Assembly: GCF_001428385.1 (NCBI RefSeq) | Contig: NZ_LMSK01000002.1 | Span: forward strand, 1,040,731 to 1,104,730 | Length of the DNA stretch: 64,000 nucleotides | Reading direction: 5' to 3' | DNA from: Rhodanobacter sp. Soil772 | GTDB taxonomy: Bacteria; Pseudomonadota; Gammaproteobacteria; Xanthomonadales; Rhodanobacteraceae | Shown: in pieces, positions 20,306 through 37,871 of the stretch | Layout of the letters: every line of letters begins with the position of its first letter | Numbering within the stretch: the stretch's first letter is position 1 | The notes under the pieces: generated by a model | The model's database searches: none | Told to the model about the DNA's origin: nothing | What the model saw: only the letters and a program-made list of their open reading frames with translations | Made by a program: the position numbers and the translations under genes

Positions 20306-21136
20306 ATGCCAGCCGCCCAGTTCGCCGTGTTCGGCCATCCGATCAGCCACTCGCGGTCGCCGCAGATCCACCAGGCATTTGCGCGGCAGTTCGGCGTCGA
20401 GCTGGAGTACCGCGCGATCGACGCGGCGCCGGTCGAGTTTGCCGCGGTCGTGCAGCGCTTCTTCGCCGCCGGCGGCCGCGGCGCGAATGTCACCTTGCCG
20501 CACAAGGCCGCCGCCTATGCGCTGGCCGTGCAACGCAGTATGGCGGCCACCCGCGCCGGCAGCGCGAACGTGCTGACCCCGCTGGCCGACGGCCGGCTGG
20601 CCGCGCACAACACCGATGGCGCCGGCCTGGTGCGCGACCTCACCGAGCGTCACCACGTGGACCTGCGCGGCCACACCGCCCTGCTGCTGGGCGCCGGCGG
20701 TGCCGCGCATGGCGTGGCCTGGAATCTGCTGGATGCCGGCGTGGAGACGCTGACCATCGTGAGCCGCACCGCCGAGACCGCCGATGCGCTGGCCGACGCG
20801 ATTGGCGAACCGGCGCGCGCGCATACCCGCTACTGGTCCGATCTGGCCGACATCGGCAGCTACGACATGATCATCAACGCCACCTCGGCCGGCGTGCTGG
20901 GTGCGTCGCTGCAGTTGCCGCCCGCGCTGGTCGGTGCGCGCGCGCTGTGCTACGACCTTTCCTACGGCGCCGCCGCCAGCGGCTTCCTGAGCTGGGCGAC
21001 GGCCGCGGGTGCACGCTACGCATTCGACGGCCTCGGCATGCTGGTGGAAACCGCCGCCGATGCGTTCGAGTTGTGGCACGGCCAGCGTCCGGATACCGAG
21101 CCGGTGTACCAGGCGTTGCGTCAGCGGATGGCGTGA
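20306..21136 (+). CDS. aroE: Shikimate dehydrogenase
   Basis: NADPH-dependent reduction of 3-dehydroshikimate to shikimate in aromatic amino acid synthesis. 276 residues from MPAAQFAVFGHPISHSRSP. The substrate site includes NVTLPHK (catalytic Lys) and HNTDGAG (catalytic Asp). The dinucleotide motif is LLGAGGAAHGVAWNLL, and the C-terminal part carries DGLGMLVETAADAFELW. An AGGGAA ribosome site supports this start. Its stop codon overlaps a truncated cysteine-cluster reading frame. Confidence 0.96.
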   Translation: MPAAQFAVFGHPISHSRSPQIHQAFARQFGVELEYRAIDAAPVEFAAVVQRFFAAGGRGANVTLPHKAAAYALAVQRSMAATRAGSANVLTPLADGRLAAHNTDGAGLVRDLTERHHVDLRGHTALLLGAGGAAHGVAWNLLDAGVETLTIVSRTAETADALADAIGEPARAHTRYWSDLADIGSYDMIINATSAGVLGASLQLPPALVGARALCYDLSYGAAASGFLSWATAAGARYAFDGLGMLVETAADAFELWHGQRPDTEPVYQALRQRMA

Positions 21137-21225
21137 GCACGCTGGCCTGCCGGGTCGATTGCGGCGTCTGTTGCATCGCTGTCGATCAGTTTCAAGTTCA
21201 CGGCGAGGCCGTGACACGGCGCTGA
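21133..21225 (+). pseudogene. Truncated stub resembling a YkgJ-type cysteine-cluster protein
   Basis: A GTG start overlapping the aroE stop opens a 30-codon frame, VSTLACRVDCGVCCIAVDQF, that ends at a TGA. The C-x3-C-x2-CC pattern followed by IA matches the N terminus of YkgJ-family metal-binding proteins, which usually continue for at least 80 residues. Similarity stops after about 16 residues. I read it as the surviving 5' end of a gene cut when the adjacent island was acquired. The short match makes this tentative. Confidence 0.45.
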
Positions 21226-21875
21226 CATTGCCCCGGTGCTTCTCCGTGTGGCAACGGTCGGAGACGGGTGACAGGATCTCACCGTTGGCGTGAGGCTCCG
21301 GCGAGCAGTGGTCGACAGCAGTCCGGCCCGTCAATCCGGAGCCGCCGCCATCGCTTGCGAGCGCATCCATCCAGCTCCGGCGCTCCCGGCCGCACGCCGT
21401 TGGCGAGCGGCGTGCCCCAGTCACCTTGCGCGTAGTACAGGCCGGTGAGGAGCCAGCCGGACCTCAAGGCAACGCTGCAGACCTGGGCGACCGGTTGCAC
21501 CGCTGCGGCCGGCCGTACCCACACATCGCATGGGCGACAAGCCATCCGGTTCCCGGTGGAGACTCGGCTGCGGAACCGTTGCAGGTTCTCCGCTGGCGAC
21601 GTTTGAGTGTCGTCAACTGCGTTATGTTTGTCATTATTTGGTAAGTGAATTACCCACGGGCCTTCCTAGACTCGAAGCCACCGCGCTCAGTGGGTCGAGA
21701 TTTACGGCAACGGCTGAGGCGGCTCAGCGCCCTCGGGTGGGGGGAGAAGAAAACTCAATTGCGTGCGAGAGGCACGGGTTTCGTAGCGGATCGGAAGATT
21801 GCGGAATACGAAATCGTTTGAGTTTGAATGGGGCATGCCCTTTAACGGGCCAAAACAAATAATGAGAGGCTGAGT
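21226..21875. other. 650-bp intergenic region at the left edge of the accessory island
   Basis: No convincing gene. The first half is GC-rich and may contain decayed coding sequence. The second half (about 21600-21870) is richer in A and T than the surrounding genes and should hold the promoter of the TonB receptor. A GAGAGG ribosome site lies just before 21876. Confidence 0.5.
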
Positions 21876-24728
21876 ATGCCGTCTGTAAGAAAGGGTTTGC
21901 CGATTTTACTCTCCGCCATTGCGATCTGTTCCAGCGCCTCCGCGCAGGAGGCCGCACCGACGGACAATCACAAAGTTCGCACGCTGGACGCCGTGGAAGT
22001 CACCGGATCGCGCATCAAAAGTGCGGATGCGGCGACCCAGAACCCGGTGATTTCGATCACGCAGGAAGAAATTTCACGGTCCGGCCTGACCAGTGTGGGG
22101 GACATTCTTTCCCAGCTGAGCTCGGCGGGTTCGGGTTTCAATGCCCAGCTCAACCCCTCCGGCAACACCGGCCTGCCGCCGGACGGCAGCGGCAGCGGCG
22201 CGGGCTCGTCCCAGCTCAACCTGCGCAGCCTCGGCACCAAGCGCGTGCTGGTGCTGGTCGACGGCCTGCGCTGGGTCAATGAAAGTTCCGGTTCGGGCGT
22301 GTCGAACTCGGTCGACATGAACACGATTCCCGTCGGCATCATCGAGCGCATCGAGATCCTGCAGGACGGCGCGTCCTCGCTGTATGGCTCCGACGCGATC
22401 TCCGGCGTGGTGAACATCATCACCAAGAAGTCGCAGAAAGGCGGCGCCGTCAACCTCTACTCCGGCGACAACCTCCGGCTTGGCGGCGGCACGAACCGCC
22501 AGATGGGCCTGTCCTACGGCGGCAAGAGCGAAAAAGTCGAATGGTTCCTCGACCTCGGCTTCTCGAAGCAGGACGGTATTTCGTCGGACGAGTGGGAACG
22601 TTCCTCCTTTCCGGTGCCGGGTACCGGCCTGGCCCTGGGCAGCACGTCGACGCCATACACGCGGCTCATTTTCAGGGGCCAAGACACTTTTGGCGGCCTG
22701 TGCCCCGGCGGCAACTGCAACATCGTGTCCAATGGCACCTCGACCGGTGACCCATCGCAAGACTTCCACCGCTTCAGTGGTGCGACCGACCGCTTCAACC
22801 ACGCGCCGTACGGGTTGCTGCTGAACCCGCTCGAGCGCAACAGCCTTTTCGGCCAGGTGAAGTTCCAGCTTTCCGAGAGCGTCAGCGCCCACGTGAAGGG
22901 GCTCTACAACAGCCGCAAGTCGGAAAACCGCGCCGCGCCGACGAATATCTCATTCGGCACCTCGTTCGGCAGCTCGCCGTACGGCAGCATCACGACCGTC
23001 GATGCGACCAACCCGTACAACCCGTTCGGCCAGACCATCGTGCCGGTGGCCGGCCAGATGCGCCTCGTGTCGGCCGGTGCCCGCCGGTTCAAGCAGGAAG
23101 TGGATACCCGCTACTTCTCGACCGGACTGGAAGGCCATTTCAGCCTGGGAACACGCTTCTTCAACTGGGACGTCAACTACGTCGACGCCACCAACAGGGC
23201 GACGAACGAGTTGTTCACGCAGTACAACGCGGCGAAGCTCAAGCAGGCGTTGGGCCCGATTTCGCAATGCACCGGAGCGTGCGTGCCGTTCAATCTCTTC
23301 GGCGGCCCCGCGGGCGTCACCAGGGAGATGCTCGACTACATCATGTTCACGGGCCTGGACCGCAGCCAGCAGCGTCTGCAGGACTACACCGCGAACATCA
23401 GCGGCAACCTCTTCGACCTGCCGGCGGGGACGCTCGAATTCGCGGCCGGTTACGAGAACAGGAGGCAGTCCGGTTACTACACCCCGAATCCGATCGCGGT
23501 TGCCGGTGAAGTAGGTGGCGCGGGTGTATCGATGCCGCCGCTGTCGGGCTCGTTCACCACGGACGAGTACTACCTGGAGCTCAACGCGCCGTTGCTGGCC
23601 GAATTGCCGGGCATCCAGAGCTTCGACGTGTCGCTGGCCACGCGCTATTCGGACTACTCCAACTTCGGTGGCACCACCAACAACAAGGTCGGTTTCCGCT
23701 GGCAGGTCTTCAATGACCTCACCCTGCGCGGAAACTGGGCGGAAGGCTTCCGTGCGCCTTCGCTGGGCGAACTCTACGCTTCAGGTGCGATCGCCGGACC
23801 GTTGCTCAGGGATCCGTGCTCCGCAGCGACGGGGGCGATGCTGGCCAACTGCAGTGCGATTGGCGTGCCGGCGGGTTACACGCAGCTCAATACGCAGGTC
23901 CTGACGACGACGAACGGCAACGCCGGGCTCAAGCCGGAAACCTCCAAAAGCCTGACGTTCGGTGCGGTGTACAGCCCGGAATGGGGCACGCAGCGCGCAT
24001 GGGCAGACAAGCTGGACTTCTCGCTCGGCTATTACCGCATCAACGTCGAAGGCGCCATCCAGGCACCTGACGCGCAGACCGTGCTGTTCAACTGCGCCAA
24101 CAGCGCCAACCCGGCGTCGTCCGATTGCCAGCGCATCCGCCGCGACAGTCTCGGCAACATCACGCAGTTCGTCATTGCACTGGAAAATCTCGGCGCGATC
24201 CGCATGGATGGCATCGACTTCGGCGTGGACTGGAAGCTTCCGGCAACCTCGTTCGGCCGTTTCGGCGCCCGCATCGATGGTACGTACGCGCTGGAATATA
24301 CCGCCACCGATGCCATCGGACGGCAGCAGCCCGAGCGTGTCGGCATTGAAGTGACCGACCGCGGCCTGCCGCGCCTGAAGACCACGGCCAACGTCGGCTG
24401 GAGGAGCCCCGGCAACGCGTGGGCGATGGACTGGACGGTGCGTTACACCAGCCGCCTGCGCGAAACCTGCGGTTCGGCCATCGCCTATTCGGTCTGCTCC
24501 GACCCGGTGCTCAACCGCCATTACATGGCGGCGACCACGTACCACGATCTGCGCGCGTCCTGGAAACTCCCCGAAGGTTTCGCGGGCCTGTCCCTGGCCG
24601 CGGGCATCAACAACGTGTTCGACAAGGAAGCCCCGATCTGCCTGACCTGCTCGCTCAACAGCTACGACGGCTCGACCTATGCTCTGCCGGGTCGGATGGC
24701 GTATGTCTCGGCGCGCCTGGAATTCTGA
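21876..24728 (+). CDS. TonB-dependent outer-membrane receptor
   Basis: A 950-residue outer-membrane transporter powered by TonB-ExbBD. The signal peptide MPSVRKGLPILLSAIAICSS ends near SASA-QEA. A TonB-box-like LDAVEVTGSRI is followed by the plug domain (SGLTSVGDILSQL ... LVLVDGLRWVN ... IERIEILQDGASSLYGSDAI), then a long beta-barrel ending with RMAYVSARLEF and terminal Phe. There is no CarboxypepD_reg extension, unlike the receptor at 50216. It is the first plus-strand gene of the island, and two exported peptidase-family proteins follow. Ligand unknown. Confidence 0.95.
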   Translation: MPSVRKGLPILLSAIAICSSASAQEAAPTDNHKVRTLDAVEVTGSRIKSADAATQNPVISITQEEISRSGLTSVGDILSQLSSAGSGFNAQLNPSGNTGLPPDGSGSGAGSSQLNLRSLGTKRVLVLVDGLRWVNESSGSGVSNSVDMNTIPVGIIERIEILQDGASSLYGSDAISGVVNIITKKSQKGGAVNLYSGDNLRLGGGTNRQMGLSYGGKSEKVEWFLDLGFSKQDGISSDEWERSSFPVPGTGLALGSTSTPYTRLIFRGQDTFGGLCPGGNCNIVSNGTSTGDPSQDFHRFSGATDRFNHAPYGLLLNPLERNSLFGQVKFQLSESVSAHVKGLYNSRKSENRAAPTNISFGTSFGSSPYGSITTVDATNPYNPFGQTIVPVAGQMRLVSAGARRFKQEVDTRYFSTGLEGHFSLGTRFFNWDVNYVDATNRATNELFTQYNAAKLKQALGPISQCTGACVPFNLFGGPAGVTREMLDYIMFTGLDRSQQRLQDYTANISGNLFDLPAGTLEFAAGYENRRQSGYYTPNPIAVAGEVGGAGVSMPPLSGSFTTDEYYLELNAPLLAELPGIQSFDVSLATRYSDYSNFGGTTNNKVGFRWQVFNDLTLRGNWAEGFRAPSLGELYASGAIAGPLLRDPCSAATGAMLANCSAIGVPAGYTQLNTQVLTTTNGNAGLKPETSKSLTFGAVYSPEWGTQRAWADKLDFSLGYYRINVEGAIQAPDAQTVLFNCANSANPASSDCQRIRRDSLGNITQFVIALENLGAIRMDGIDFGVDWKLPATSFGRFGARIDGTYALEYTATDAIGRQQPERVGIEVTDRGLPRLKTTANVGWRSPGNAWAMDWTVRYTSRLRETCGSAIAYSVCSDPVLNRHYMAATTYHDLRASWKLPEGFAGLSLAAGINNVFDKEAPICLTCSLNSYDGSTYALPGRMAYVSARLEF

Positions 24729-24754
24729 CGCCGCGGCACGTGGAAACCCATTGA

Positions 24755-24780
24755 GCCAACACCTCCTGGGAGGTGTTGGC
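24755..24780. repeat. Perfect hairpin between TonB receptor and M20 gene
   Basis: GCCAACACCTC (24755-24765) and GAGGTGTTGGC (24770-24780) form an 11-bp perfect stem with a CTGG loop. No T-run follows, so it is probably an mRNA stabilising or partial-attenuation structure rather than a full terminator. Confidence 0.65.
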
Positions 24781-24803
24781 GACTCGACAACGAGGGCAAG
24801 TTC

Positions 24804-26342
24804 ATGAAGACCAAATTTGAATCAAGTGGTGGCAAGCCAGCGGTACGCAACCGGCTGGCGGTGTGCGCCGCCGTGCTTGGCGCCAGCTTTGTCGCCGGTG
24901 CCTTCGGCGGCGCGAACACTGCGCTCGCCGCCAGCCCCGCGATCAAGGCGGAAATCGCCAAGCAGCACGACGCATCGATCAAGCGGTTGCAGGAATGGAT
25001 CTCCGTACCGGCAGTCGCCGCGGAGAACCTGAACTATCCGGCTGGCGCCGAGCACATGATGAAGCTGGCCAGGGATGCCGGCTTCCAGCACGTGGAAATC
25101 ATTCCCACCAAGGGCAAGCCGGGCGTGTTCGCCACGCTGGATGCCGGCGCGGAAAAGACCGTGGCGCTGTACTTCCTGTACGACGTCAAGCAGTTCGTCG
25201 CCTCCGAGTGGACCTCGCCGCCGACGGAGGGCCGTCTGGTCCACAAGCCGGGCTTCGGCGAGGTGATGGTCGGTCGCGGCGCGGTCAACCAGAAGGGTCC
25301 CGAGTCGGCTTTCCTGGCCGCCTTGCATGCCATCCGCGCCACCGGAAAGAAGCCGCCGGTGAACCTCGTCCTCGTCGCCGAGGGTGAAGAGGAAATCGGT
25401 TCGCCGAACATCGGCGACCTGGTGCTCAACCCCAAGGTCAAGGCAGCGCTGAGCAAGAGCATGGGCGTCTTCGCGCCCTATCCGTTGCAGGGTCCGGATG
25501 GTGCGGTCACCATCAATCTCGGCGCCAAGGGCATGGTGGAACTCGAGCTGGTTTCCACCGGCAAAGCCTGGGGCCGTGGCCCGACCAAGGACATCCATTC
25601 GTCGTACAAGGCGATGGTGGACAGCCCGACCTGGCACCTGGTCAAGGCGATGTCCTCGATGGTGTCCGAGGACGGCAACACCATCACGATCGACGACTTC
25701 CCCAAGGCCGCTCCGCTGACCGCGGAAGAAAAGGACATGATCGCCAAGGCGACCAAGGTCCGCAGCGAAGAGGCCATGAAGAAACTGTTCGGCGTCTCGC
25801 GCTGGATCGACGATCTGTCGTGGCGCGAAGCGAACGAGCGGCTGGTGTCGCAGCCTACGCTGAACATCGAGGGCATGATCGCTGGCTACACCGGCGAAGG
25901 CGGCAAGACCGTGCTGCCCACCCGCGCTTCGGCGAAGTTCGATATCCGCCTGCCCAGGGGCATGAGCTACGACGTGGCGGTGGCGAAAGTGAAGGCCCAC
26001 CTGATCAAGCACGGCTACGGCGACATCGAAGTCATCGAGACCGGCGGCTACAACTCGACCACCACGGCATCCAGCGCCAGGCTGATCCAGGCGCAGATCG
26101 CCGCGCTCCGGAACGAAGGAATCGAGCCCCTGATGTGGCCGCGTGGCGCGGGATCGTTCCCGGGCTACATCTTCTCCGATCCGCCGTTGAGCTTGCCGGT
26201 GGCCCTGGTGGGTGTCGGTCACGGCGGCCAGCAGCACGCGCCCGACGAGTACTTCGTGATCAAGTCGGAGCATCCCAAGATCAAGGGCTACGATGGCGCC
26301 GTCGAAGCGTACGTCGACTACCTGTACGAGCTGGCGAAGTAA
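24804..26342 (+). CDS. Exported M20-family metallopeptidase-like protein with altered metal site
   Basis: A 512-residue exported protein of the M20 (carnosinase/CPG2-like) fold with a signal peptide ending near ALAAS (about residue 43). It keeps the acidic pair in EGEEEIGSP, the DIHS dimerisation-domain motif and the last ligand region GQQHAPDE. However, the usual YGHYDVQP reads YFLYDVKQ (Leu125 at the metal His), the usual GRGxxDDKG reads GRGAVNQKG (Asn162 at the bridging Asp), and the next Asp ligand (typically SDTP) reads APYP. Three of five ligands therefore appear changed. It may bind metal differently or work as a binding protein. Between a TonB receptor and an S46-like protein. Confidence 0.9.
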   Translation: MKTKFESSGGKPAVRNRLAVCAAVLGASFVAGAFGGANTALAASPAIKAEIAKQHDASIKRLQEWISVPAVAAENLNYPAGAEHMMKLARDAGFQHVEIIPTKGKPGVFATLDAGAEKTVALYFLYDVKQFVASEWTSPPTEGRLVHKPGFGEVMVGRGAVNQKGPESAFLAALHAIRATGKKPPVNLVLVAEGEEEIGSPNIGDLVLNPKVKAALSKSMGVFAPYPLQGPDGAVTINLGAKGMVELELVSTGKAWGRGPTKDIHSSYKAMVDSPTWHLVKAMSSMVSEDGNTITIDDFPKAAPLTAEEKDMIAKATKVRSEEAMKKLFGVSRWIDDLSWREANERLVSQPTLNIEGMIAGYTGEGGKTVLPTRASAKFDIRLPRGMSYDVAVAKVKAHLIKHGYGDIEVIETGGYNSTTTASSARLIQAQIAALRNEGIEPLMWPRGAGSFPGYIFSDPPLSLPVALVGVGHGGQQHAPDEYFVIKSEHPKIKGYDGAVEAYVDYLYELAK

Positions 26343-26549
26343 GCGGTTTCAGCGAGCGGTACATGTTTCATGGTTCGTCCGCCCTTTCCGGTCGCCTCGC
26401 GCGATCGGAAAGGAGCGACGGCTCCTCCGCAAGATGACGCTGCACGAAGGCGCCCGGGTGCCCGATGCATCGCCGGCGCGGGGCGGGCCGGTGGAAATCG
26501 GCATCAATGATTCAATCTGTCCCGTGTGGGGTGGATCCGGGAGATGGTC

Positions 26550-28598
26550 ATGCTCGTCAGGGTTGCAGCAGTTGTTGTCACGGCGTTTTTCGCGAGTGCC
26601 CCTGCCTTCGCTTCCGAAGGGCTATGGCAACCGGACCATCTGCCGCTCGCCGCCGTGAACAAGGCCTATGGTTTCGCACCCGACGCCGACTGGATCAGCC
26701 GGACGCAACGCTCGTCCGTGCGTTTGACGGGAGGCTGTTCGGGTGCCTTCGTCTCGCCGGACGGCCTGGTACTGACGACCCCGCGGTGTATCGAGGCCTG
26801 TGTGCAGAAGGTCTCGACTGCCGCCACGAATTACGCGGCCAACGGCTATTACGCCAGAACCGGCAAGGACGAACTGATCTGCCCGGGCCTGGGCATGGAT
26901 CGCCTCGATGCCATCGAGGACATTTCCGTGCGCATCAGACAAGCGCTGGCCGGCAAGGCTGCCGGCGACCTGCGGGCGGTGAAGAAGGATGTCGAGAAGG
27001 AGTGCGCCAGCAAGGGCGCCCCGGGCACACGCTGCGAGGTGGTCGGTTTCCATGGCGGCGCGACGCATTCGCTCTACCGGTATCACCACTTCGACGATGT
27101 GCGTCTGGTCTTCTCGCCCGAAGGGTCGGTGGCAACCTTTGGTGGCGACCCGAACAATTTCGAATTCCCCCGCTATGCCTTCGATGTCGCGCTGCTGCGC
27201 GCCTACGACAACGGCAAGCCGGTCGCCAGCGCGGACTTCTTTCCGCTTTCCACCCAGGATGCGAAAGCCGGCGAACTGACGATCGCGATCAGCAACCCGG
27301 CCGGTGGCTCGCGGGCGAAAACCCTGGCGCAACTGCAGACCGACAAGGACCGCGACATCGCCCACGCGCTCATGCGCTTCGGTGAACTGCGCGGTGTCCT
27401 GACCCGTTACATCGCGGAAAGCGAGGAGCACCGGCGCATTGCGCAGGCCGACCTTTTCGCCATCGAGAGGCTGTACAAGTCGTTCCGGGGGAAGTTCGAG
27501 GCCCTGCAGGACGCCGACATGCTTGCCCGCAAGCGCGCGGACGAACAAAGCCTGCAGGATTTCGTCGCCGGCGACCCCGCGCGCAAGGCAAGGTACGGTG
27601 CGGCGTGGGACGAGATCGAACGCGCACAAGCCACCTATCGCGAAATCGAGTTGCCGTTCCAGTTCAAGGAAGGTCGCGGCGGCTTCTTCAGCAAGTACCT
27701 GGGTTTCGCCAAGGCGCTGGTGCGCGGCGCCGCCGAGCACGACGCCATCAAACGCGGTGAGCCGGTGCCGGAACTGCAGAGCGAAACGCAACAGTTGTTC
27801 TCCACCGCCCCCGTCTACCCGGATTACGAGAAGGTCAAGTTCACCTTCACGCTCGCCCAGGTGCGCGACGGGCTGGGTCTCTACTATCCCTTCGTGCAGA
27901 AGGCGATCGGCAACGAGTCGCCCAAGGCGCTGGCGAACCGCCTGGTCGAAGGCACCCGGCTGGGCGACATCGCTGTCCGCAAGGCGCTCCAGCAAGGCGG
28001 CACCGCCGCGATCGAGAGCTCCGACGATACCTTCATCAAGCTGGCGCGCCTCATCGAACCCGATGCGAAAGAAGCCCGCAAGCAGATGGACGACTATGAG
28101 GCATGGGTCGGCCGCAACGGCCGCCTGATCGAGCAGGCGCGCTTCGAGAAGTACGGCGACGCGGCCTATCCGAACCCGACCGCCACCCAGCGCTTCTCGT
28201 TTGGCACGGTCGCGGGCTGGCATGACGGCACGCGGCAGGTCGCGCCATTTGCCGACGTCGCAGACCTCTTCGCCCGCGCGAACGCGGAAGCCCCTTTCAT
28301 GCTGCCCCCGTCATGGGTCGCGGCGAAAGGCGCGCTCGATCCGAAGCAGCACCTCAACTTCGTTACCAGCAACGACGTGATCGGCAGCGACAAGGGCGCC
28401 GCGCTGATCGACCGCGACCGTCAGCTCGTAGGCATCGTCTACAGCGGAAACGTCGCCTCGCTGGGCGGTGACTTCTGGTTTGACGAGCGCAGCAACCGCA
28501 CCGTATCGGTTCCTTCGGGCGCCGTGCTCGAAGTTCTCCGCAAGGTGTACAAGGCCGACCGCGTCGTGGGCGAGCTCGAAACGGCCAGGCGGCATTGA
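26550..28598 (+). CDS. S46-family dipeptidyl-peptidase-like protein lacking the catalytic Ser and His
   Basis: A 682-residue exported protein of the S46 family (DPP7/DPP11/DAP BII). The signal peptide starts MLVRVAAVVVTAFFA and ends near AFA-S. The GGGAG ribosome site 6 nt upstream supports this ATG over in-frame 26544 and 26526. Family landmarks are SGAFVSPDGLVLT, FGGDPNNFEFPRYAFDVALL (catalytic Asp kept) and the C-terminal FDERSNRTVSV. The catalytic His motif TNHHC reads TTPRC (Arg79), and the serine motif GGNSGSP reads GSDKGAA (Lys about 615). By known S46 chemistry it should not act as a serine peptidase. Same strand as the M20-like gene. Confidence 0.92.
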   Translation: MLVRVAAVVVTAFFASAPAFASEGLWQPDHLPLAAVNKAYGFAPDADWISRTQRSSVRLTGGCSGAFVSPDGLVLTTPRCIEACVQKVSTAATNYAANGYYARTGKDELICPGLGMDRLDAIEDISVRIRQALAGKAAGDLRAVKKDVEKECASKGAPGTRCEVVGFHGGATHSLYRYHHFDDVRLVFSPEGSVATFGGDPNNFEFPRYAFDVALLRAYDNGKPVASADFFPLSTQDAKAGELTIAISNPAGGSRAKTLAQLQTDKDRDIAHALMRFGELRGVLTRYIAESEEHRRIAQADLFAIERLYKSFRGKFEALQDADMLARKRADEQSLQDFVAGDPARKARYGAAWDEIERAQATYREIELPFQFKEGRGGFFSKYLGFAKALVRGAAEHDAIKRGEPVPELQSETQQLFSTAPVYPDYEKVKFTFTLAQVRDGLGLYYPFVQKAIGNESPKALANRLVEGTRLGDIAVRKALQQGGTAAIESSDDTFIKLARLIEPDAKEARKQMDDYEAWVGRNGRLIEQARFEKYGDAAYPNPTATQRFSFGTVAGWHDGTRQVAPFADVADLFARANAEAPFMLPPSWVAAKGALDPKQHLNFVTSNDVIGSDKGAALIDRDRQLVGIVYSGNVASLGGDFWFDERSNRTVSVPSGAVLEVLRKVYKADRVVGELETARRH

Positions 28599-28651
28599 TC
28601 ATGCGCAGTGAAGCCAGGCGGAGCAGCGCGACGATTGAATCCGGAACGGAA

Positions 28652-30313
28652 ATGAAAAGACCCTGGATCGCTTCCTATGGCAGCACCATCCCGGAAGAAA
28701 TCGATGCGGATTCCTTCCCGACCCTTCTTCATGTGTTCGATGCCGCGGTCGCCCGCTATCCGGACCACACCGCGTTCGTCGGCATCGGCGGTCGCCTGAC
28801 CTACGCGGAAGTCGATCGTGAAGCGCGCGCGTTCGCTGCGTTCCTGCAGGGCCGGCTCGGGGTCAGGAAGGGCGATCGCATTGCGGTGATGCTGCCGAAT
28901 ATCCTCGCCTTCCCGATCGCCATGCTCGGCATCATTCGGGCCGGCGCGATCCAGGTCAACGTCAACCCGATGTATACCGCCCGCGAGCTGGAACACCAGC
29001 TGCAGGACGCGGGGGCCAGCGTCATCGTGGTCTACACCGGTTCCACGCCGACCCTGGCCGAGGTGGTCGGCAAGACCGCGATCAAACATGTGATCAGTGT
29101 GACGCCGGGCGATAGCGGCAACGTGCCCGCGGTCGGTCCCGTCATGGATGCACGGTTGCACGATGCGATCGCGTTCGCGGAGGCGCTGCATGTAGGAAAG
29201 GACCTCGACTTCCGGCCGGTCGACATCGAAGGCAGCGACGTGCTGTTCCTGCAGTACACCGGCGGAACCACGGGGCTGTCCAAAGGAGCGGTGCTGACGC
29301 ATCGCAATCTCGTCGCCAACTTCCAGCAGTTCGGCGCCGTGATTCCGCAGGCACTGCGACCCGGCATCGAACGGGTGGTCACGGCCTTGCCGCTCTACCA
29401 TATCTTCGGGCTGACGGTGAACCTCGTCAGCTACTTCGCCATCGGCGCGACGAACTGGCTGGTGGCCAATCCGCGCGATATCGATGGTCTTGTCCAGACA
29501 CTCAAGGACGCGAGGCCGACGGTCTTTGCCGGGGTCAACACGCTTTATGCGGCGCTGCTGGCGAACCCGGGTCTCGGCGAAGTGGATTTTTCCGAACTCC
29601 GCCTCGCCGCCGGTGGCGGAGCATCGATACTTCCCGTGACCTCGGCGGGTTGGCAAAAGGTCACTGGAGTCATCATCCACGAAGGCTATGGGTTGTCCGA
29701 GACCAGTCCGGTGCTGTCGTTCAACCCGGCGGAATTGACCGAGTTCAACGCAACGGTCGGGCTGCCGCTGCCGTCGACGGATATCAGGCTGATCGACGAC
29801 GACGGTGCCGAAGTCGCCATCGGCCAGACCGGAGAGATCTGCGCGAAGGGCCCGCAGGTGATGCCGGGTTACTGGCGCAATCCGGACGCGACCGCGGTCG
29901 CGTTCACCCGCGACGGATACTTCCGGACGGGCGACATCGGCCAGTTCAACGAGGCGGGCTTTTTGCGCGTGGTCGATCGCAAGAAGGACATGATCAATGT
30001 CTCCGGATTCAACGTGTACCCGAACGAAGTCGAAGCGATCGCGTCCGCCTGCCCCGGGGTGGCCGAGTGCGCATGCATCGGCACGCAAGATATCGGCGAT
30101 GGCGAGAAAGTTTCCCTGTTTGTGGTCCGGTCGGCGGGTTCGACCTTGACCGAGGCGGAGCTGGTTGCGCATTGCCGTAATGAACTTGCGGCGTACAAAG
30201 TTCCCAGGCTGATCCACTTTGTCGATGCGCTGCCGAAGTCCACCGTGGGCAAGATTCTGCGCCGCGAGTTGCGGGCTGTAACGGTAGCCTCGAAGAACCA
30301 GGGTTCGTCGTGA
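28652..30313 (+). CDS. Acyl-CoA ligase (FadD-like, AMP-forming)
   Basis: Activates a carboxylic acid to its CoA thioester through an acyl-adenylate. 553 residues from MKRPWIASYGSTIPEEID, aligned with the usual FadD N terminus; an in-frame upstream start at 28601 is possible. Motifs: P-loop YTGGTTGLSKGA, EGYGLSETSP, YFRTGDIG, DRKKDMINVSGFNVYPNEVE and the C-terminal catalytic Lys in KSTVGKILRREL. It follows the S46-like gene closely and is probably cotranscribed with it. The acid could be a fatty acid or the product of the minus-strand pathway genes; specificity cannot be read from sequence. Confidence 0.92.
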   Translation: MKRPWIASYGSTIPEEIDADSFPTLLHVFDAAVARYPDHTAFVGIGGRLTYAEVDREARAFAAFLQGRLGVRKGDRIAVMLPNILAFPIAMLGIIRAGAIQVNVNPMYTARELEHQLQDAGASVIVVYTGSTPTLAEVVGKTAIKHVISVTPGDSGNVPAVGPVMDARLHDAIAFAEALHVGKDLDFRPVDIEGSDVLFLQYTGGTTGLSKGAVLTHRNLVANFQQFGAVIPQALRPGIERVVTALPLYHIFGLTVNLVSYFAIGATNWLVANPRDIDGLVQTLKDARPTVFAGVNTLYAALLANPGLGEVDFSELRLAAGGGASILPVTSAGWQKVTGVIIHEGYGLSETSPVLSFNPAELTEFNATVGLPLPSTDIRLIDDDGAEVAIGQTGEICAKGPQVMPGYWRNPDATAVAFTRDGYFRTGDIGQFNEAGFLRVVDRKKDMINVSGFNVYPNEVEAIASACPGVAECACIGTQDIGDGEKVSLFVVRSAGSTLTEAELVAHCRNELAAYKVPRLIHFVDALPKSTVGKILRRELRAVTVASKNQGSS

Positions 30314-30777
30314 TGCCGCGGCACCCGCCGAAGACGTAACCGGCTCGGCGAACAGTCACGCGTCGGCGGCCGCGGCTCCATCATGGGCGGGGCGCCGCAC
30401 CAGGGAGGGCCATACGCGCCGGCCCGTGCTGGCGCCAGGTTTGGCGGCTTGGCAAGATGAGTCGATGGGTGGTCAGCTCCAATCTGTATAGTCGGGCGAC
30501 TATCGGGGTGCTGTCCGGGGAGGCGAAAAATGGTGGGGCGCGGCCACAATTCCTCGATCGCATTTCATGCAGCGGCGGCTTCGCGCAGCCGCTCGTGCAT
30601 GGCGTGCCCGTCGGTTTCTCTCGCGTATCGGTATGACGAAGCAGGCTGGCAAGGATCGCGTTGCGGGCCAATGAATGGCGACCGTGCACAGGCCCGCCGC
30701 AGGTGCATCCGGCATCGGCAGTATCCCGTGCCGCACCTCCATGCCGAAAGCGCACCCAGGCTTTCCCGGAGAGCAGA
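30314..30777. other. 464-bp gap upstream of the AraC regulator
   Basis: No supported gene. It should carry the regulator promoter. The only notable element is the dyad at 30488-30503. Short frames here lack family features. Confidence 0.5.
30488..30503. promoter_or_regulatory. Operator-like dyad upstream of the AraC regulator
   Basis: ATAGTCG-GG-CGACTAT is a 16-bp near-perfect dyad 275 bp before the regulator start. It may be a protein-binding site; which protein is unknown. Confidence 0.35.
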
Positions 30778-31866
30778 GTGCCATTGAAGCGACAAGCCGG
30801 AGCGGGCGGAAAAGTCCGGGCGGCCGTGCTCATGCATTACCTCGACGTGGCCAGCGAGATCGGGTTCGATCCGCATCCCACGCTGGCGAATGTCGGCTTG
30901 AGCCCGGACATGTTCGAGAACCAGGATCAGACCCTGCAGGCGGAGGTCGTGGTTCGCCTGCTCGAACAAAGTGCAGCGGCCTCGGGCTGCGAAACCTACG
31001 GTTTGAGGATGGCCGAGCCGAGGAATATTTCCGCGCTGGGGGCTGTCAGCTTGCTGGTGTCGCAGCAGCGCACGCTGAAAGACGTGTTGAACACGATCAT
31101 CAGCTACCGCCAGCTCGTGAATGAAGCGCTGGCCATACACATGGAGAATGCCGGCAAGTCCACCATTCTCCGGCAGGAAATCGTCATCGGTGCCCAGGAG
31201 TCGCTGCGCCAGGCCACTGAGTTGGCCATCGCCGTACTCTTCCTGACCTGCCGCTCGATTTTCGGCACGCGCTGGCGTCCGTCGAGCGTGAATTTTTCGC
31301 ACCCTGCTCCCGCGAGTCTGCGCATCCACCGGCGGGTCTTCCAGTGCCCGGTATCCTTTGGCTCGGACTTCAACGGCATCGTGCTCCCCACCGAGATTCT
31401 GGAGATTTCGAATCCGTTGACCGATCCGGTCATGGCCACCTATGCCCGGCAATTCATCGAGACGATGTCGTCAGGCGATACCGTTTCAACCGTCCAGGAA
31501 GTGCGGAAGTCCATTCACATCCTTTTGCCGATGGGATCGGCGACGATCGAGCAGGTGGCCAAGCTGCTGGCTTTCAACGTGCGCTCGCTGCAGCGTCGCC
31601 TTGACGAAAACGGCGAGACTTTCGTCAGCTTGATCAATGAAGTAAGGCGTGAACAGGCGCTGCGATTCATGAAAGATCCTTCGTGCGCGCTGGGCCATAT
31701 TTCCGAGCAGCTTGGCTACAGCAACCCCAGTTCTTTTACGCGCTGGTTTGCCACCCAGTTCGGCGTCACCCCGGCGCGTTGGCGTGCGACACAGGGCATT
31801 CGCTATCGCCGCGGTGTCATGCCGCAGGCCGTACTGCCCGAGCCGCGGATTCGTCGAGCCCTGTAG
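30778..31866 (+). CDS. AraC-family transcriptional regulator (OruR/ArgR-like)
   Basis: A 362-residue DNA-binding regulator. The N-terminal ligand-sensing region (MHYLDVASEIGFDPHPTLANV onward, about 200 residues) is of the arabinose-binding-like type seen in OruR-like regulators. The C-terminal double helix-turn-helix includes IEQVAKLLAFNVRSLQRRLD and ISEQLGYSNPSSFTRWFATQ followed by GVTPARWR. A GTG at 30778 with a GGAG site 6-8 nt upstream is chosen; the frame opens further upstream without a good start. It sits between the two arms of the island and is the obvious candidate to control them. Confidence 0.88.
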   Translation: MPLKRQAGAGGKVRAAVLMHYLDVASEIGFDPHPTLANVGLSPDMFENQDQTLQAEVVVRLLEQSAAASGCETYGLRMAEPRNISALGAVSLLVSQQRTLKDVLNTIISYRQLVNEALAIHMENAGKSTILRQEIVIGAQESLRQATELAIAVLFLTCRSIFGTRWRPSSVNFSHPAPASLRIHRRVFQCPVSFGSDFNGIVLPTEILEISNPLTDPVMATYARQFIETMSSGDTVSTVQEVRKSIHILLPMGSATIEQVAKLLAFNVRSLQRRLDENGETFVSLINEVRREQALRFMKDPSCALGHISEQLGYSNPSSFTRWFATQFGVTPARWRATQGIRYRRGVMPQAVLPEPRIRRAL

Positions 31867-31922
31867 CGACGAGGTTGCCCGGGCACGGGCCACGAGGGGC
31901 CGCCAGCAGTTCTTCGCCTCCT

Positions 31923-33221
31923 TCAGGCGATGCCGTCAATGGCGTGGGGCTTCCCGCTGTGTTGCCGCCACAGCGACAGGGCAAGACGGTAGAGGAAGAT
32001 CGCCATCAGGCCCATGACGGGCATGATCAGAAGCGCATTGCGAAGGCCGATATGGTCGGCAATGACACCGGTTACGAAGGGGCCAGGTGCGAGGCCGAGT
32101 ATGTTGTTTACCAATGTCAGAACCGCAAGCGCGGTCGCATGGAACGACACGTGCGACAACTGCGTGACCATCGAGCCGGTTGGGCCGGCCATCCCGGCGG
32201 AAAAGAAAAAGCCGAGTGCGATGAAGCCGAGTTGCACGGGCCCTGGCGGCAGCGCGAACGCAATGAAGAGGCTCACGGCAGACACCGCGCAATAGATCAT
32301 GGCCAGACGCACCTGCTGCCCGCTCGCCGGCGCAGCGCGACTCTTGCGATCGCTTACTATGCCGAGCACGACCATTCCGACGCCGCCGCAAAGGACGAGT
32401 ATCGCCGCGAAGCTGGCGGCCTGGGCCGTCTGCATTCCGTAGTAACGCACCATATAGCTTGGAGTCCATGCCATCAGTGCGCTGGGAAGAAACATTTGCA
32501 CGCCGCTCGCGGCATAGAGACAGAGCAGGACCGGATTCGTGAACAGGTTGCGCAGACTTGTCGTGGGCCCCGAGGCGGCCCTGGCGCTGGCACCCGATGG
32601 AGCCCGCGCCATCCTGCGCTCTCGCACGACGAAGGGGTAGATCACCGCGAAGACAAGGCCGAACGCCGCCATGGCGTAAAAGGCCACGCGCCAGCCGAAG
32701 TGCGCCGCGATGGCGCCGCCGGAGGCTATTCCCAGCACGGACCCGAACAACCCGCCGGCCATGAAGGCGCCGGTGATCGTGGCGCGCATGTGGACCGGGA
32801 ACACCGACAGCGCCACGGCGAGCCCGACGGCACCGTAGGCGGCCTCGCCCAACCCGACAAAGAAGCGGGCGATCAGCATTTCTTCGTAGGTGCGGGCGAA
32901 CCCGCAGGCGAGCGTTGCGAGACTCCAGAGCAGGGCCATCGTGACCAGGCACCTGATGCGTCCGTACCTGTCCGCCAGCAACGAAAGCGGAAGCGTCAGG
33001 AGGCCCACCGTGAGGGCAACGACGCTGCTCAGTCCGCCGAGTTTCGCGTCGGATACTCCCCACTCCATTTTCAGCAGCGGAAATACCGCATTCAGCACCT
33101 GCCTCGACATGTAGTCGGACAACAGAAGTGCGAAGGTCAGCGCGAACACCATCCAGGCGTAGGTCCGCGGCGGCAGGGATTCGCCGTTCAATGACAACGC
33201 CGGGTTATCGCGCTGGGGCAT
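31923..33221 (-). CDS. Major facilitator superfamily transporter
   Basis: A 432-residue inner-membrane transporter with about 12 hydrophobic segments. The segment 2-3 loop signature is LADRYGRIRC, and segment 1 is followed by SDYMSRQVLNAVFPLLKMEW. Position 33221 is chosen as start because the segment before it (to 33293) is not membrane-like. It is the last gene of the minus-strand qor-tauD-BKACE-hydrolase run, 130 bp after the hydrolase. It probably imports the compound, or exports a product, of this pathway. The sequence resembles organic-acid carriers, but the substrate is unknown. Confidence 0.9.
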   Translation of the reverse strand: MPQRDNPALSLNGESLPPRTYAWMVFALTFALLLSDYMSRQVLNAVFPLLKMEWGVSDAKLGGLSSVVALTVGLLTLPLSLLADRYGRIRCLVTMALLWSLATLACGFARTYEEMLIARFFVGLGEAAYGAVGLAVALSVFPVHMRATITGAFMAGGLFGSVLGIASGGAIAAHFGWRVAFYAMAAFGLVFAVIYPFVVRERRMARAPSGASARAASGPTTSLRNLFTNPVLLCLYAASGVQMFLPSALMAWTPSYMVRYYGMQTAQAASFAAILVLCGGVGMVVLGIVSDRKSRAAPASGQQVRLAMIYCAVSAVSLFIAFALPPGPVQLGFIALGFFFSAGMAGPTGSMVTQLSHVSFHATALAVLTLVNNILGLAPGPFVTGVIADHIGLRNALLIMPVMGLMAIFLYRLALSLWRQHSGKPHAIDGIA

Positions 33222-33351
33222 GGAATTCTCGCTCTCGGGAGTTTGTGCAATCAACTTGAAATGCGTGGCATGGACATGAATGGCAGTGCCCATGACGTAT
33301 CCGTCAAGACGGGTGGATGCGCGCCGACCGGACGTGGACGATACGACGTCC

Positions 33352-33999
33352 TCAACCTTCCGTCAGCAAGGAATGGATATGGTGGGTCGCCTCGGGCCAA
33401 TCACCGTAACCAGACGCTGGATTCAGGTGGCCGACCTCGCCGAGATCGACCAGCTTGCTTCCCCAGTCGCGGGCAAAGCCGGCAATTCGCGAAGCCTCTC
33501 CCAAAGGATCATTGCTGCTTGCAGCGACGATGCTGCGAAATGGCAATTGCGCACGCGGCAGCGGCAACCAGCCACCCGCACGCAGCGCATCCAGCGCGGG
33601 ATACGCGGGCGGCATGGGCAGTTCGAGGTCGGCCGGCGCGGCCAGCAGCGCGCCGTGTATCGCCCGGTTGCTGCCGTGTTCGGCTGCCCAGTGGATGGTG
33701 ATCATGACGCCCGCGCTGTGGGCCACGAAGACGATGGGCCCTTCGACGGCGGCCACCACCGATTGCAACGCGTTGACGCGCGCCGCCCGACTGAGCTTGT
33801 CGGTCTCCAGGGGAGGCACGGTACGGGAGCGTGGCAGGCGTTCGGCGAGAAGCGTCTGCCAATGCTCGGCAACGTGATCCCGCAGACCGGGGACGATCAC
33901 GACGGTTACATCATGCGGGGTCATCATGATGCCGGCACCGCCATGGATTCGTGCCTGCGGGATCACGTTGCCGAGCATTGGCTTTGCCGGAGCACTCAT
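33352..33999 (-). CDS. RBBP9/YdeN-type alpha/beta hydrolase
   Basis: Small serine hydrolase, 215 residues from the ATG at 33999, whose start overlaps the upstream stop by 4 nt (ATGA). The family N terminus is TVVIVPGLRDHVAEHWQ, the nucleophile elbow is VFVAHSAGVM (Ser in HSAG) and the C-terminal His lies in GEVGHLN. Family members normally begin at about MMTPHDVTVV, so 33927 may be the true start. The extra ~24 residues are partly encoded by one arm of a 28-bp inverted repeat. Likely cleaves an ester, amide or thioester in the same pathway. Confidence 0.82.
   Translation of the reverse strand: MSAPAKPMLGNVIPQARIHGGAGIMMTPHDVTVVIVPGLRDHVAEHWQTLLAERLPRSRTVPPLETDKLSRAARVNALQSVVAAVEGPIVFVAHSAGVMITIHWAAEHGSNRAIHGALLAAPADLELPMPPAYPALDALRAGGWLPLPRAQLPFRSIVAASSNDPLGEASRIAGFARDWGSKLVDLGEVGHLNPASGYGDWPEATHHIHSLLTEG
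33858..33982. repeat. Perfect 28-bp inverted repeat at the BKACE-hydrolase junction
   Basis: Bases 33858-33885 and 33955-33982 are exact reverse complements (28 of 28) separated by 69 bp. The 33858-33885 arm encodes the conserved GLRDHVAEHW motif of the hydrolase, so the other arm is probably the secondary copy. The hydrolase ATG pair at 33922-33927 lies in the loop. Confidence 0.9.
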
Positions 34000-35078
34000 G
34001 TGCGGTTGCTGGCGCGTCGTGATCCCCCGTGCCGGGTCGCTCCCACCTGGCCCGGCCGGCGGCTGGGCGCAAAACCATTCTGGTGCAGGGCTTCTTCGGC
34101 GTCGTTGTAGAACGTGCCGATCTTGTAGATCTCGCGCGCCTCTTTGGCGCTCGCCACTTCGCGGCCGAATTCGCGGGCTATCCGGACCAGCTGCTGGACC
34201 TGCTCCACACTGGTTATCTTGCGCGTGCGATCCTGGGCCCAGAGGTTGTCCTCGTTGCCGCAACGGACATGCAGGCCCATCGCGATGGCCATCATGTTGA
34301 CCGGCAGCACGTTCAACATCGACGACTCGAGCGTGAGCACGGCGCCATCGGGCACGGCGCGAACGAAGTTGGCCAGGTTGTAGAGGTTCGGCGCGTCGAA
34401 GCCGCCGCCGATGGCGACCCAGGTAAGAATGAGGGGAACGTTGCAGGTACCGCGCCGCATCATGCGCTCGACCGTCTCGAGCTGGGTGATGTTGGCCAGC
34501 TGGAAGTGCGTCTGGATACCGCTGGCGCTGAGCCTGCGGATATGTTCCTCGACCCATTCCGGGCCGGCGGGTATCGTCATTTCACGATAGGCGCGGTACA
34601 CCTCCGGCCTTGCGATGCTGGTGCCGCGCAGATCGGCTTCACACATCTGCTCCACGATGTTCATCTGGTTCGTGTTGATCGCAATCGTCACCTGGTCCGG
34701 CCGCGGGTCGAGCTCGGCCAGCATGTGGCGCGTATCGTCCGAAAGCCACTTCGCGGCCTCGCCATCGCTTTCCGGTGCAAAGGAGATGGACCCGCCCACC
34801 TGGATGATCATGTCGGGCACGGCCTTGCGGACGCCGGCGATCAACTCGTTGAACATCGAAAGGCGCTTGGAACCCTTGCCGTCGAGCTCGCGCACATGCA
34901 GGTGCAGCACGGTGGCGCCGGCGTTGTAGCAATCGACCGCCGTCTGGATGTGTTCCTGCATGGTGAGCGGAAGATCCTCGGGGAAATCCTCAGGCACCCA
35001 CTCCGGACCGTAGGGGGCGACGGTGATGACCAGTTTCTGCTGGTTTTCGGGGAATAGAGATCCGTCTAGAAAATTCAT
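33996..35078 (-). CDS. Beta-keto acid cleavage enzyme (BKACE, DUF849)
   Basis: Zinc-dependent enzyme family that condenses a beta-keto acid with acetyl-CoA to give acetoacetate and a new acyl-CoA. 360 residues. The zinc-binding HxH motif is in GATVLHLHVRE (about residue 60), and the TIM-barrel family segments IIQVGGSISF, LELSSML-like TLESSMLNV and AQDRTRKITSVEQVQQLVRI are visible. GGAG ribosome site 7 nt before the ATG. The C terminus (GQVGATRHGGSRRASNRT) is unlike the family and may be changed by the rearrangement behind the inverted repeat. Operon with tauD-like, qor-like and hydrolase genes. Confidence 0.9.
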   Translation of the reverse strand: MNFLDGSLFPENQQKLVITVAPYGPEWVPEDFPEDLPLTMQEHIQTAVDCYNAGATVLHLHVRELDGKGSKRLSMFNELIAGVRKAVPDMIIQVGGSISFAPESDGEAAKWLSDDTRHMLAELDPRPDQVTIAINTNQMNIVEQMCEADLRGTSIARPEVYRAYREMTIPAGPEWVEEHIRRLSASGIQTHFQLANITQLETVERMMRRGTCNVPLILTWVAIGGGFDAPNLYNLANFVRAVPDGAVLTLESSMLNVLPVNMMAIAMGLHVRCGNEDNLWAQDRTRKITSVEQVQQLVRIAREFGREVASAKEAREIYKIGTFYNDAEEALHQNGFAPSRRPGQVGATRHGGSRRASNRT

Positions 35079-35139
35079 GAGTCACTCCATGCAGGATGTG
35101 GGAGGTCGATGTGCCGGGGAGGCTGAAAGCGCGAAGCCA

Positions 35140-35997
35140 TCAATACGGTTTGGCGCCGACGATCGCGGCGCGCTCCATCTTTCTGAAGCTCGGTGGGTAG
35201 TCCATGACCGCGTAATGGTTGGTGCTGCGGTTATCCCAGATCGCCACGCTGTAAGGCGTCCAGCGCCAGCGCACCTGGTACTCCGGGTTGTACGCCTGGC
35301 TGATCAGGTACTTGAGCAAGTCGGCTCCGACCTGGTTGTAGTCCTGGCCGTAACGCACGTGTTCGCTGGTGTGGTAGTTGACGAAGTGGGTGGCGAAGGC
35401 GTTCACGAACAGGACTTTCTCACCCGTATCCGGATGGGTGCGGACCACCGGGTGTTCGGCGTCTGGGTACCGGGCCTTCAAGGCGAGGCGCTTTTCGGCG
35501 GGGAAAGCCGCGGCGAACGACGCGTTAAAGCTGTGGTTCGCGATCAGGCCGTCGATCTGCGATTTGATCGCTGCAGGAAGCTTTTCATAGGCCAGCACCA
35601 TGTTCGCCCACATCGTGTCACCACCGGTCGGTGGGCATTCGATGCAGCGCAGGACGCAGGCCATGGGTGGCTTCCCGCGGAAGGTGCCGTCGCAATGCCA
35701 AGCGTTCTCGTAACGCTCCCTCGGGGTATCAGGGCTCTTGTAGATCTGCACCAAGCCCGGCGCTTCCGGGTGACTGGGGATGAGCGGATGGTCTTCGAGC
35801 TCGCCCAGGCGCTGGGCGAATGCCATGTGCTGCTGGCGCGAAAGCTTGTCGAGTGTCTGGTCGCGCAGGAACAGCACGCGGTGCTTCAGCAGCGCCGCGT
35901 AGATTTCCTCGAACAGACCATCGTCGGTCACGGCATCCGCCAGATTCACATCCAGCAGTTCCGCACCGATGGCACAGGTCAGGGGGTCGATGCGCAT
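35140..35997 (-). CDS. TauD/TfdA-type Fe(II)/2-oxoglutarate dioxygenase
   Basis: A 285-residue non-haem iron oxygenase that hydroxylates its substrate while decarboxylating 2-oxoglutarate. Iron ligands appear as His and Asp in NAWHCDGTF and a distal His in NRSTNHYAVMDY. The 2-oxoglutarate-binding Arg is in RKMERAAIVG. Family members act on taurine, phenoxy-acids, gamma-butyrobetaine and similar acids; the substrate here is unknown. It starts 2 nt after the qor-like stop, so they are cotranscribed. Confidence 0.9.
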   Translation of the reverse strand: MRIDPLTCAIGAELLDVNLADAVTDDGLFEEIYAALLKHRVLFLRDQTLDKLSRQQHMAFAQRLGELEDHPLIPSHPEAPGLVQIYKSPDTPRERYENAWHCDGTFRGKPPMACVLRCIECPPTGGDTMWANMVLAYEKLPAAIKSQIDGLIANHSFNASFAAAFPAEKRLALKARYPDAEHPVVRTHPDTGEKVLFVNAFATHFVNYHTSEHVRYGQDYNQVGADLLKYLISQAYNPEYQVRWRWTPYSVAIWDNRSTNHYAVMDYPPSFRKMERAAIVGAKPY

Positions 35998-35999
35998 GC

Positions 36000-36980
36000 T
36001 CACACCACGAAGATCGAGGAGCCCGTGGTCTTGCGACTCTCGAGGTCTTGATGTGCCTGCGCCGCCTGCTCCAGCGAATAGCGCTGGTTGATTTCGATCT
36101 TGATGCGACCGGCGGCGACATGACCGAATACTTCCGCGGCCAGCGCGGCTTTCTCGGCGGGATCGGCGATGTAATCCGCCAGCGCGGGACGGGTCAGATA
36201 GAGCGACCCCTTCATGGCCAGGAGCTGCGGATCGAACGGCGGAATGGTGCCGGAGGCGGTACCGACGCAAACCATCAGGCCGCGACGGCACAGTGAATCC
36301 AGCGAGGCCATGAAGGTGTTCTTGCCGACGCTGTCGAACGCCACATCGACACCGCGACCACCGGTCAATTCGCGCACGCGCGGGGCAATAGCCTCGCGTG
36401 TGTAGTTGATGATCTCGTCGCAACCATGGCTGCGCGCCAGGGCCGCTTTCTCATCGGTCGAGACGGTACCGATCACTCGCAAGCCGAGCAGCTTCGCCCA
36501 CTGCGTCACGATCAGCCCGACACCGCCGGCGGCCGCGTGCAGGAGAATGGTTTCGCCCGGCTTGAAGTCATGGATGCGGCGCATCAGATACGCGGAAGTG
36601 AGCCCGCGCATCGTCATCGCCGCCGCCGTCTCGCAGTCGATGCCTTCGGGCAACTTGATCAACGAAGCCGCCGGAACAAGGCGCTCCGTGCTGTAGGCAC
36701 CCAGGGTATTGATGAAGCCGGTATAGGTGACCTTGTCGCCGACCGTGACGTTCGTTACGTCTGGACCCAGTTCGGTAACGACGCCTGCCGCCTCGACCCC
36801 GATACCGGAGGGCAATGGGATCGGATAAGTTCCATTGCGGAAGTAGGTGTCCGCATAATTCAGGCCCACGGCAACATGGCGCAGGCGGACTTGCCCCACA
36901 CCCGGGGCACCGACATCAACGTCCTCGAGAACCAGGACCTCTGGAGCTCCGGTCTGATAAAATCGCACGGCTTTGACCAC
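36000..36980 (-). CDS. Zinc-independent quinone oxidoreductase (MDR family)
   Basis: A 326-residue NADPH:quinone-reductase-like medium-chain dehydrogenase/reductase. The GroES-like N-terminal half has VGLNYADTYFRNGTYPIPLP and GIGVEAAGVV. The Rossmann half has HAAAGGVGLIVTQWAKLLG and DVAFDSVGKNTF. Structural zinc cysteines are absent, as in Qor. It begins at a GTG with a GGAG site. First gene of the minus-strand island operon; it may reduce an enone, quinone or aldehyde intermediate. Confidence 0.9.
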   Translation of the reverse strand: MVKAVRFYQTGAPEVLVLEDVDVGAPGVGQVRLRHVAVGLNYADTYFRNGTYPIPLPSGIGVEAAGVVTELGPDVTNVTVGDKVTYTGFINTLGAYSTERLVPAASLIKLPEGIDCETAAAMTMRGLTSAYLMRRIHDFKPGETILLHAAAGGVGLIVTQWAKLLGLRVIGTVSTDEKAALARSHGCDEIINYTREAIAPRVRELTGGRGVDVAFDSVGKNTFMASLDSLCRRGLMVCVGTASGTIPPFDPQLLAMKGSLYLTRPALADYIADPAEKAALAAEVFGHVAAGRIKIEINQRYSLEQAAQAHQDLESRKTTGSSIFVV

Positions 36981-37303
36981 GTGGTCGGACTCCGGGTTTT
37001 ATTGGGTGACGGTCTCGACTTTAGGGAGGCCTCCCGGCGTGTTGCTTCTCCATCTGCGACAAAAGATTCTCATTTGGAGACAGCGGTAGCTCCGACTTGA
37101 GCAAATCGTCAAAGCCATCATCTGTGGTTGCTGGTTTCTGTCGAAAGCTGGGCCGGCTTTTCATCGAAAAGCGGGCAGTCCGTTCGGTGACGCTGACGGG
37201 TACCGACACGGGACTGAAACACGTGACGGCTACCGTGGCGCCTGTCGCCGGGAGCGCGCCGCCGGCGCCGTCTTCGCGAGCGACCGTCCATGCAGCAGGT
37301 GTC

Positions 37304-37858: not shown

Positions 37859-37871
37859 TTCCGCGCCAGGG

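Follow-up and report, generated by a model that had tools for sequence, protein, structure and literature searches.

The window, a stretch of 64,000 nucleotides from Rhodanobacter sp. Soil772, carries a gene of the S46 peptidase family inside a block of DNA that sets this genome apart from the genus relatives compared. The block and the genes that lie in it are:

21190..37200, no strand, island of about 16 kb, missing from the compared genus relatives; its ends are good to tens of bases at best
21876..24728, + strand, TonB-dependent receptor, first gene of a likely operon (from gene order and spacing)
24804..26342, + strand, M20-family protein immediately upstream of the S46-like gene, with Leu125 and Asn162 at metal-ligand positions
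26526..28598, + strand, S46-family protein of 690 aa without the catalytic His and Ser; start GTG 26526 or ATG 26550
28595..30313, + strand, AMP-binding acyl-CoA ligase, FadD-like; an in-frame ATG at 28601 lies two bases past the S46 stop
30661..31866, + strand, AraC-type regulator (start uncertain)
31923..33293, - strand, MFS transporter
33996..35078, - strand, BKACE-family beta-keto acid cleavage enzyme
35140..35985, - strand, TauD/TfdA-type dioxygenase (start uncertain)
36000..36980, - strand, quinone oxidoreductase

The island was delimited by comparing window positions 15001-48000 by BLASTN (pieces longer than 150 bases) with eight genus relatives, taken from 20 that were searched for the two flanking genes and having both genes on one contig. 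In all eight, similarity ends at 21142-21191 and resumes at 37199-37246 with nothing between, and in the relatives 67-242 bases separate one flank from the other. A small Cys-containing frame runs across the gap in six of the eight relatives, the exceptions being the pair whose gaps are shortest; part of such a gene may therefore have given way to the island. GC content is 63.4% within the island versus 66.8% and 66.9% in the flanks. The right half (31923-36980) is like a beta-proteobacterial cluster: plasmid pAZKH of Azoarcus sp. KH32C carries quinone oxidoreductase, TauD/TfdA, BKACE (81.3% identical) and MFS (52.6% identical) genes in the same order. The island ligase is 64.9% identical to one from Burkholderia pyrrocinia, where an AraC gene follows. 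These likenesses to Azoarcus and Burkholderia clusters point to a mosaic catabolic island. Positions 20500-38000 hold no tRNA, and the longest exact direct match between 21000-21900 and 36900-37500 is one 13-mer. Six short patterns run against viral contigs, a search that detects close relatives only, confirmed no viral source, and the 26 plasmid records matched by the S46 gene include no near donor (best 39.4% identity). The island sits between genes conserved in the genus, near others that by eye resemble the replication-origin genes dnaA, dnaN and gyrB.

The preliminary description had reported an intact, full-length frame with S46 landmarks throughout, and both statements hold. ORF analysis of the window gives an unbroken frame of 690 residues on the + strand from a GTG at 26526 to 28598, the ATG of that description lying at 26550. 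The Pfam S46 profile PF10459 matches at 528.7 bits against a cut-off of 22, with residues 29-685 covering profile positions 1-697 of 698, and the NCBIfam Dpp7 equivalog NF053519 scores 150.8 bits, far under its cut-off of 1200. An AlphaFold2 model built from 30 aligned sequences has a mean pLDDT of 87.9 and a pTM of 0.84, and a search with it gave 31 PDB matches at E 0.001 or below, every one an S46 structure (best TM-score 0.83) and dipeptide-bound DAP BII (3wol) included. Solved S46 structures are matched by sequence alignment as well. In the predicted model a helical domain is set inside a double beta-barrel domain, with helices at 267-546 between strand-rich regions; S46 homology is present by profile and by fold over the full length. 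The signal-like N-terminus suggests that the protein is secreted or periplasmic. The genome (G000) comprises 3.57 Mb in five contigs, with an assembly that is 99.98% complete and 0.06% contaminated, and encodes two more S46 proteins above the family cut-off. Their genes lie side by side on a different contig (C1), both have an intact triad (alignment rows L054 and L002:1489-3822), and both are about 28-31% identical to the window protein.

The passages of PMC8041751 on the S46 active site describe for SmDPP7 a triad of His84, Asp222 and Ser655, and an oxyanion hole formed by the backbone of Ser655 and Gly653. There, the substrate amine is held by Asn213, Trp214, Asp672 and Asn328, Arg218 fixes Asp672 (R218A abolishes all activity), and the clamp closes upon the dipeptide (PMC8041751). 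For DAP BII the same source names His86, Asp224, Ser657 and Asn330; the remaining DAP BII numbers used here are those of SmDPP7 plus two, checked by counting along the structure alignment. The signal-like stretch and the corresponding sites in the window protein, all on the + strand, are:

26550..26612, + strand, putative Sec signal peptide, residues 9-29 (...SAPAFA, then SEGLW), from sequence and low pLDDT at residues 21-29
26775..26789, + strand, residues 84-88, TTPRC in place of TNHHC by alignment, with Arg87 for the catalytic His (His86 in DAP BII)
27183..27185, + strand, Asp220, kept equivalent of catalytic Asp224; D in all 149 other rows that have a letter here
27468..27470, + strand, Arg315 for Asn330 (substrate-amine holder); N in 155 of the 156 other rows that have a letter here
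28383..28403, + strand, residues 620-626, GSDKGAA in place of GGNSGSP by alignment, with Ser621 for the oxyanion Gly and Lys623 for Ser657
28443..28445, + strand, Ser640 for Asp674 (substrate-amine holder); D in all 154 other rows that have a letter here

The His-Asp-Ser triad of an active S46 dipeptidyl peptidase reads Arg87, Asp220 and Lys623 here, and at the two positions whose backbone forms the oxyanion hole, the nucleophile Ser and the Gly two residues ahead of it, stand Lys623 and Ser621. The amine-holding set of Asn, Trp/Phe, Asp and Asn is also incomplete, with two of the four replaced (Arg315 and Ser640), Asn211 kept and Phe212 being the letter of most rows. Both motif replacements had been recognized in the preliminary description, where the arginine was numbered 79 and the lysine about 615, together with a kept catalytic Asp and a predicted absence of S46 serine chemistry. 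This account stands, with the residues renumbered as Arg87 and Lys623 and with no His or Ser at the places aligned with the catalytic His and Ser, and the changes extend beyond it to the substrate-amine residues (Asn330- and Asp674-type) and the oxyanion Gly. Across ten active-site positions (Arg87, Asp220, Lys623, Ser621, Asn211, Phe212, Ser640, Arg315, Arg216 and, as the tenth, Tyr639 in the place of Phe671), six are changed, compared with 23 among 115 other conserved positions (p 0.010 in a one-sided Fisher test, a small one, on a set picked by the analyst from residues named in PMC8041751). With six of ten changed, neither cutting nor the usual hold on the amine is expected to remain. The sequence thus strongly supports a loss of S46 serine catalysis, and ordinary dipeptide binding is unlikely because half of the amine-holding residues are replaced. 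Basic residues now occupy the former His, Ser and Asn places (Arg87, Lys623 and Arg315); since the broken conserved positions together shift the net charge by only +2, the claim of a basic change concerns the cleft and not the whole protein.

To place these substitutions within the family, relatives were gathered from overlapping sets of genomes (a kinship sample of 60, the class with 369, the genus with 45 and the order with 398) and from GTDB genome contigs, where the best 80 of 570 relatives were kept; the window's genome or its near kin may lie outside these 80. The broad alignment keeps 158 of 165 rows (149 loci) after window-locus copies, duplicates and substrings were dropped; its 157 other rows include the two paralogues and partial pieces, and are non-independent, many coming from one genus. 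Among these 157, the His column has 148 H and 9 gaps, the Asp column 149 D and 8 gaps, the Ser column 153 S, 1 T (row L096) and 3 gaps, the Asn330-type column 155 N, 1 S and 1 gap, the Asp674-type column 154 D and 3 gaps, and the oxyanion Gly column 153 G, 1 D and 3 gaps. Whether other members share Arg or Lys at the His and Ser positions, a check raised in the preliminary description, is answered in the negative, as none of the 157 rows does. A conserved inactive S46 branch is not supported, on this count and because the nearest 12 rows are intact.

A narrower subfamily alignment holds 109 rows including the window, reduced from 117 by dropping three of fewer than 640 residues and five duplicates, and in its 108 other rows the His column is 100% and the Ser column 99.1% conserved. 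The window protein breaks 29 of the 125 columns that reach 95% conservation, too many to put down to chance; the median among the 108 others is 1, and the next two rows break 14 each. In a quick ML tree of 98 of the 109 rows its end branch is 1.23, where its 12 clade mates (SH-aLRT 99) have 0.042-0.22. This 13-row clade holds the nearest kin, up to 52% identical, and the other 12 members all keep His and Ser. Branch length alone proves nothing, since L036 has an end branch of 1.17 and breaks 14 conserved positions with its triad intact. With no Arg or Lys in any other row, the window protein is, as these alignments have it, a lone, fast-evolving lineage among the sequences searched. Within the genus, the S46 gene is found in one of 45 genomes at E 1e-80.

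Such divergence could reflect either decay or retention. Measured against its 12 sisters, the protein keeps a hydrophobic residue at 137 of 143 all-hydrophobic columns (Ala and Tyr counted) and all six sister-invariant cysteines, with eight of 34 sister-invariant glycines changed. It differs at 89 of the 296 sites invariant in the 12 sisters, where sisters left out in turn show 2 to 13 differences at 301-312 invariant sites, and it departs from the majority at 225 of 362 variable sites. When an intact sister gene was taken to 52% identity in a neutral-decay simulation, a simple random-mutation model, none of 200 runs stayed stop-free and the mean was 9.5 stops. The kept core and cysteines, together with the stop-free frame, argue for selection on the fold through most of the divergence. 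They give indirect support to retention over decay, as the preliminary description had held, and concern past divergence, not proof of present selection; the new role also suggested there is a plausible proposal. The frame could also be intact because inactivation was recent, as the branch need not wholly postdate it, in which case the gene would be a still unbroken passenger of the island and its product functionless. This we regard as unlikely. It would suit an S46-like gene known from one species only, in one of 45 genus genomes, with a 1.23 end branch, breaks at 29 of 125 conserved positions and changes common to no other aligned row. The 690-codon frame, the kept core hydrophobics and cysteines and the stops that the simple neutral model accumulates at the same divergence all speak against it, as does a next gene that begins directly past the S46 stop.

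The M20-family protein encoded at 24804-26342 has an altered active site of its own. In its subfamily the metal-ligand His is replaced by Met (Leu in the window) and the bridging Asp by Asn, and all 29 other rows carrying both stretches (L166 to L193 without L186, plus L136 and L137) read M-Y-D-V and N-Q-K-G. In alignments with the solved relatives 4mmo and 2pok, His and Asp stand at those two positions, which we take to be the metal-ligand His and the bridging Asp. The window M20 protein has an end branch of 0.9, yet breaks only five of 114 conserved positions. As the aligned rows have it, its odd residues are a family trait, unlike the changes in the S46-like gene, and a conserved pseudo-M20 group in this order is possible. 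That two adjoining peptidase relatives both have altered active sites is suggestive. An ancestral TonB-M20-S46 operon was sought in 20 regions round M20, 15 round S46 and 13 round TonB homologues under set BLAST limits, and was not found in them: none pairs S46 with TonB or M20, and L208 alone combines two of them, an M20 gene and, about 4.5 kb away, a TonB receptor with 35% identity.

Our preferred reading, which we put forward tentatively, is that the gene encodes a secreted, catalytically dead S46 homologue kept by selection on an acquired island, with a cleft that binds an anion. Given a kept fold, lost cutting residues and a place on an island, the protein is probably kept for a non-cutting job. 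As read from the aligned positions, the cleft would have shifted from amine-binding and catalytic (His, Ser, Asn and Asp) to basic (Arg87, Arg315 and Lys623), and Arg216, freed of its usual partner, the lost Asp, would add to this basic character. The two-domain clamp would then bind an anionic ligand and leave it uncut; a carboxylate processed by the island is one candidate. Because the gene follows the TonB receptor and M20-like genes and precedes the acyl-CoA ligase gene, helping to capture or hand over this ligand in the periplasm would be the likeliest job. We infer anion binding from residue types, location from the signal-like N-terminus and the pathway role from the neighbours.

Pseudopeptidases are known to act as partners or decoys, and the protein might bind proteins or peptides at its surface, or pair with active S46 enzymes, two intact genes for which lie in the same genome. 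S46 enzymes are dimers (PMC8041751), and inactive metallopeptidase relatives regulate or scaffold, in the cases treated in PMC11266112. We consider a partner or decoy role distinctly doubtful, as the intact paralogues are distant in sequence and on a different contig, and as active-site positions have changed more often than other conserved ones. The cleft could instead support new chemistry, with Lys623, by itself or together with Ser621 or Ser640, serving as a base or forming an imine. Here the Lys lies exactly at the nucleophile position, new serines have appeared at two other active-site positions and the island encodes a beta-keto acid cleavage enzyme, but relatives with a conserved Lys are lacking among the 157 other rows, and we judge this highly improbable. 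More improbable still is the fuller version, an S46 fold turned into a different enzyme. Lys623, sharing the active site with Ser621, Ser640 and several arginines, would there be the catalytic base or form an imine, and the substrate would be an anion, for example a beta-keto compound, from the pathway of the island. An assembly or sequencing error, which the preliminary description had named as a possible refutation and which presence in a single genus genome might suggest, is extremely unlikely, because the codon differences number in the dozens, stay in frame and span several motifs, with no frame break, in a high-quality assembly.

The locus offers a natural test of peptidase-clamp evolution, since the catalytic centre has changed along with some of the substrate-holding residues while the core is kept, and an anion-binding cleft is a concrete prediction. 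It also bears on annotation, since a score far above the S46 cut-off means that the protein would be called a peptidase. Mammals lack S46 enzymes, which are exopeptidases under study as drug targets (PMC8041751). Titles and abstracts of the S46 literature searched, which lies mostly outside subscription journals, describe no inactive homologue, a weak indication that none has been reported. Pseudoenzymes occur in most enzyme families (PMC11266112), which makes this one less surprising, while the double rewiring and the island setting make it more so. The inactive homologues treated there are alike in having a peptidase fold without catalytic residues; they are metallopeptidases, and the main text lacks the term 'serine peptidase' and has 'M20' in reference identifiers only (PMC11266112).

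Among characterized S46 enzymes, DAP BII (3wol and others) and S. maltophilia DPP7 (7dkb, 8grt) share with the window protein the full-length fold, the catalytic Asp and the Asn215-type and Arg220-type residues. In contrast, identity to these structural matches is 22-24%, and the His, Ser, oxyanion Gly, Asn330-type and Asp674-type residues are replaced in the window protein. The nearest kin belong to the S46 subfamily with FGGDPDNFNFPR (L055-L165, L005 and L034-L038; up to 52% identity), whose hosts include Pseudomonadota, Myxococcota, Acidobacteriota and others. The 12 clade mates from this subfamily differ in keeping His and Ser and in their neighbours in the regions inspected. Another member of the subfamily, L158 (G639:C4:2364412-2366496), has one in-frame TAA within its match. 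The S46 protein of Sinimarinibacterium sp. CAU 1509 (L096:3887-6055) resembles the window protein in having an altered serine motif, GDNTSGP, and 14 broken positions, the second-highest number, tied with L036. Unlike the window protein, it keeps the His and the amine-holding Asp and has Thr in the Ser column, a second and separate nucleophile change within the family.
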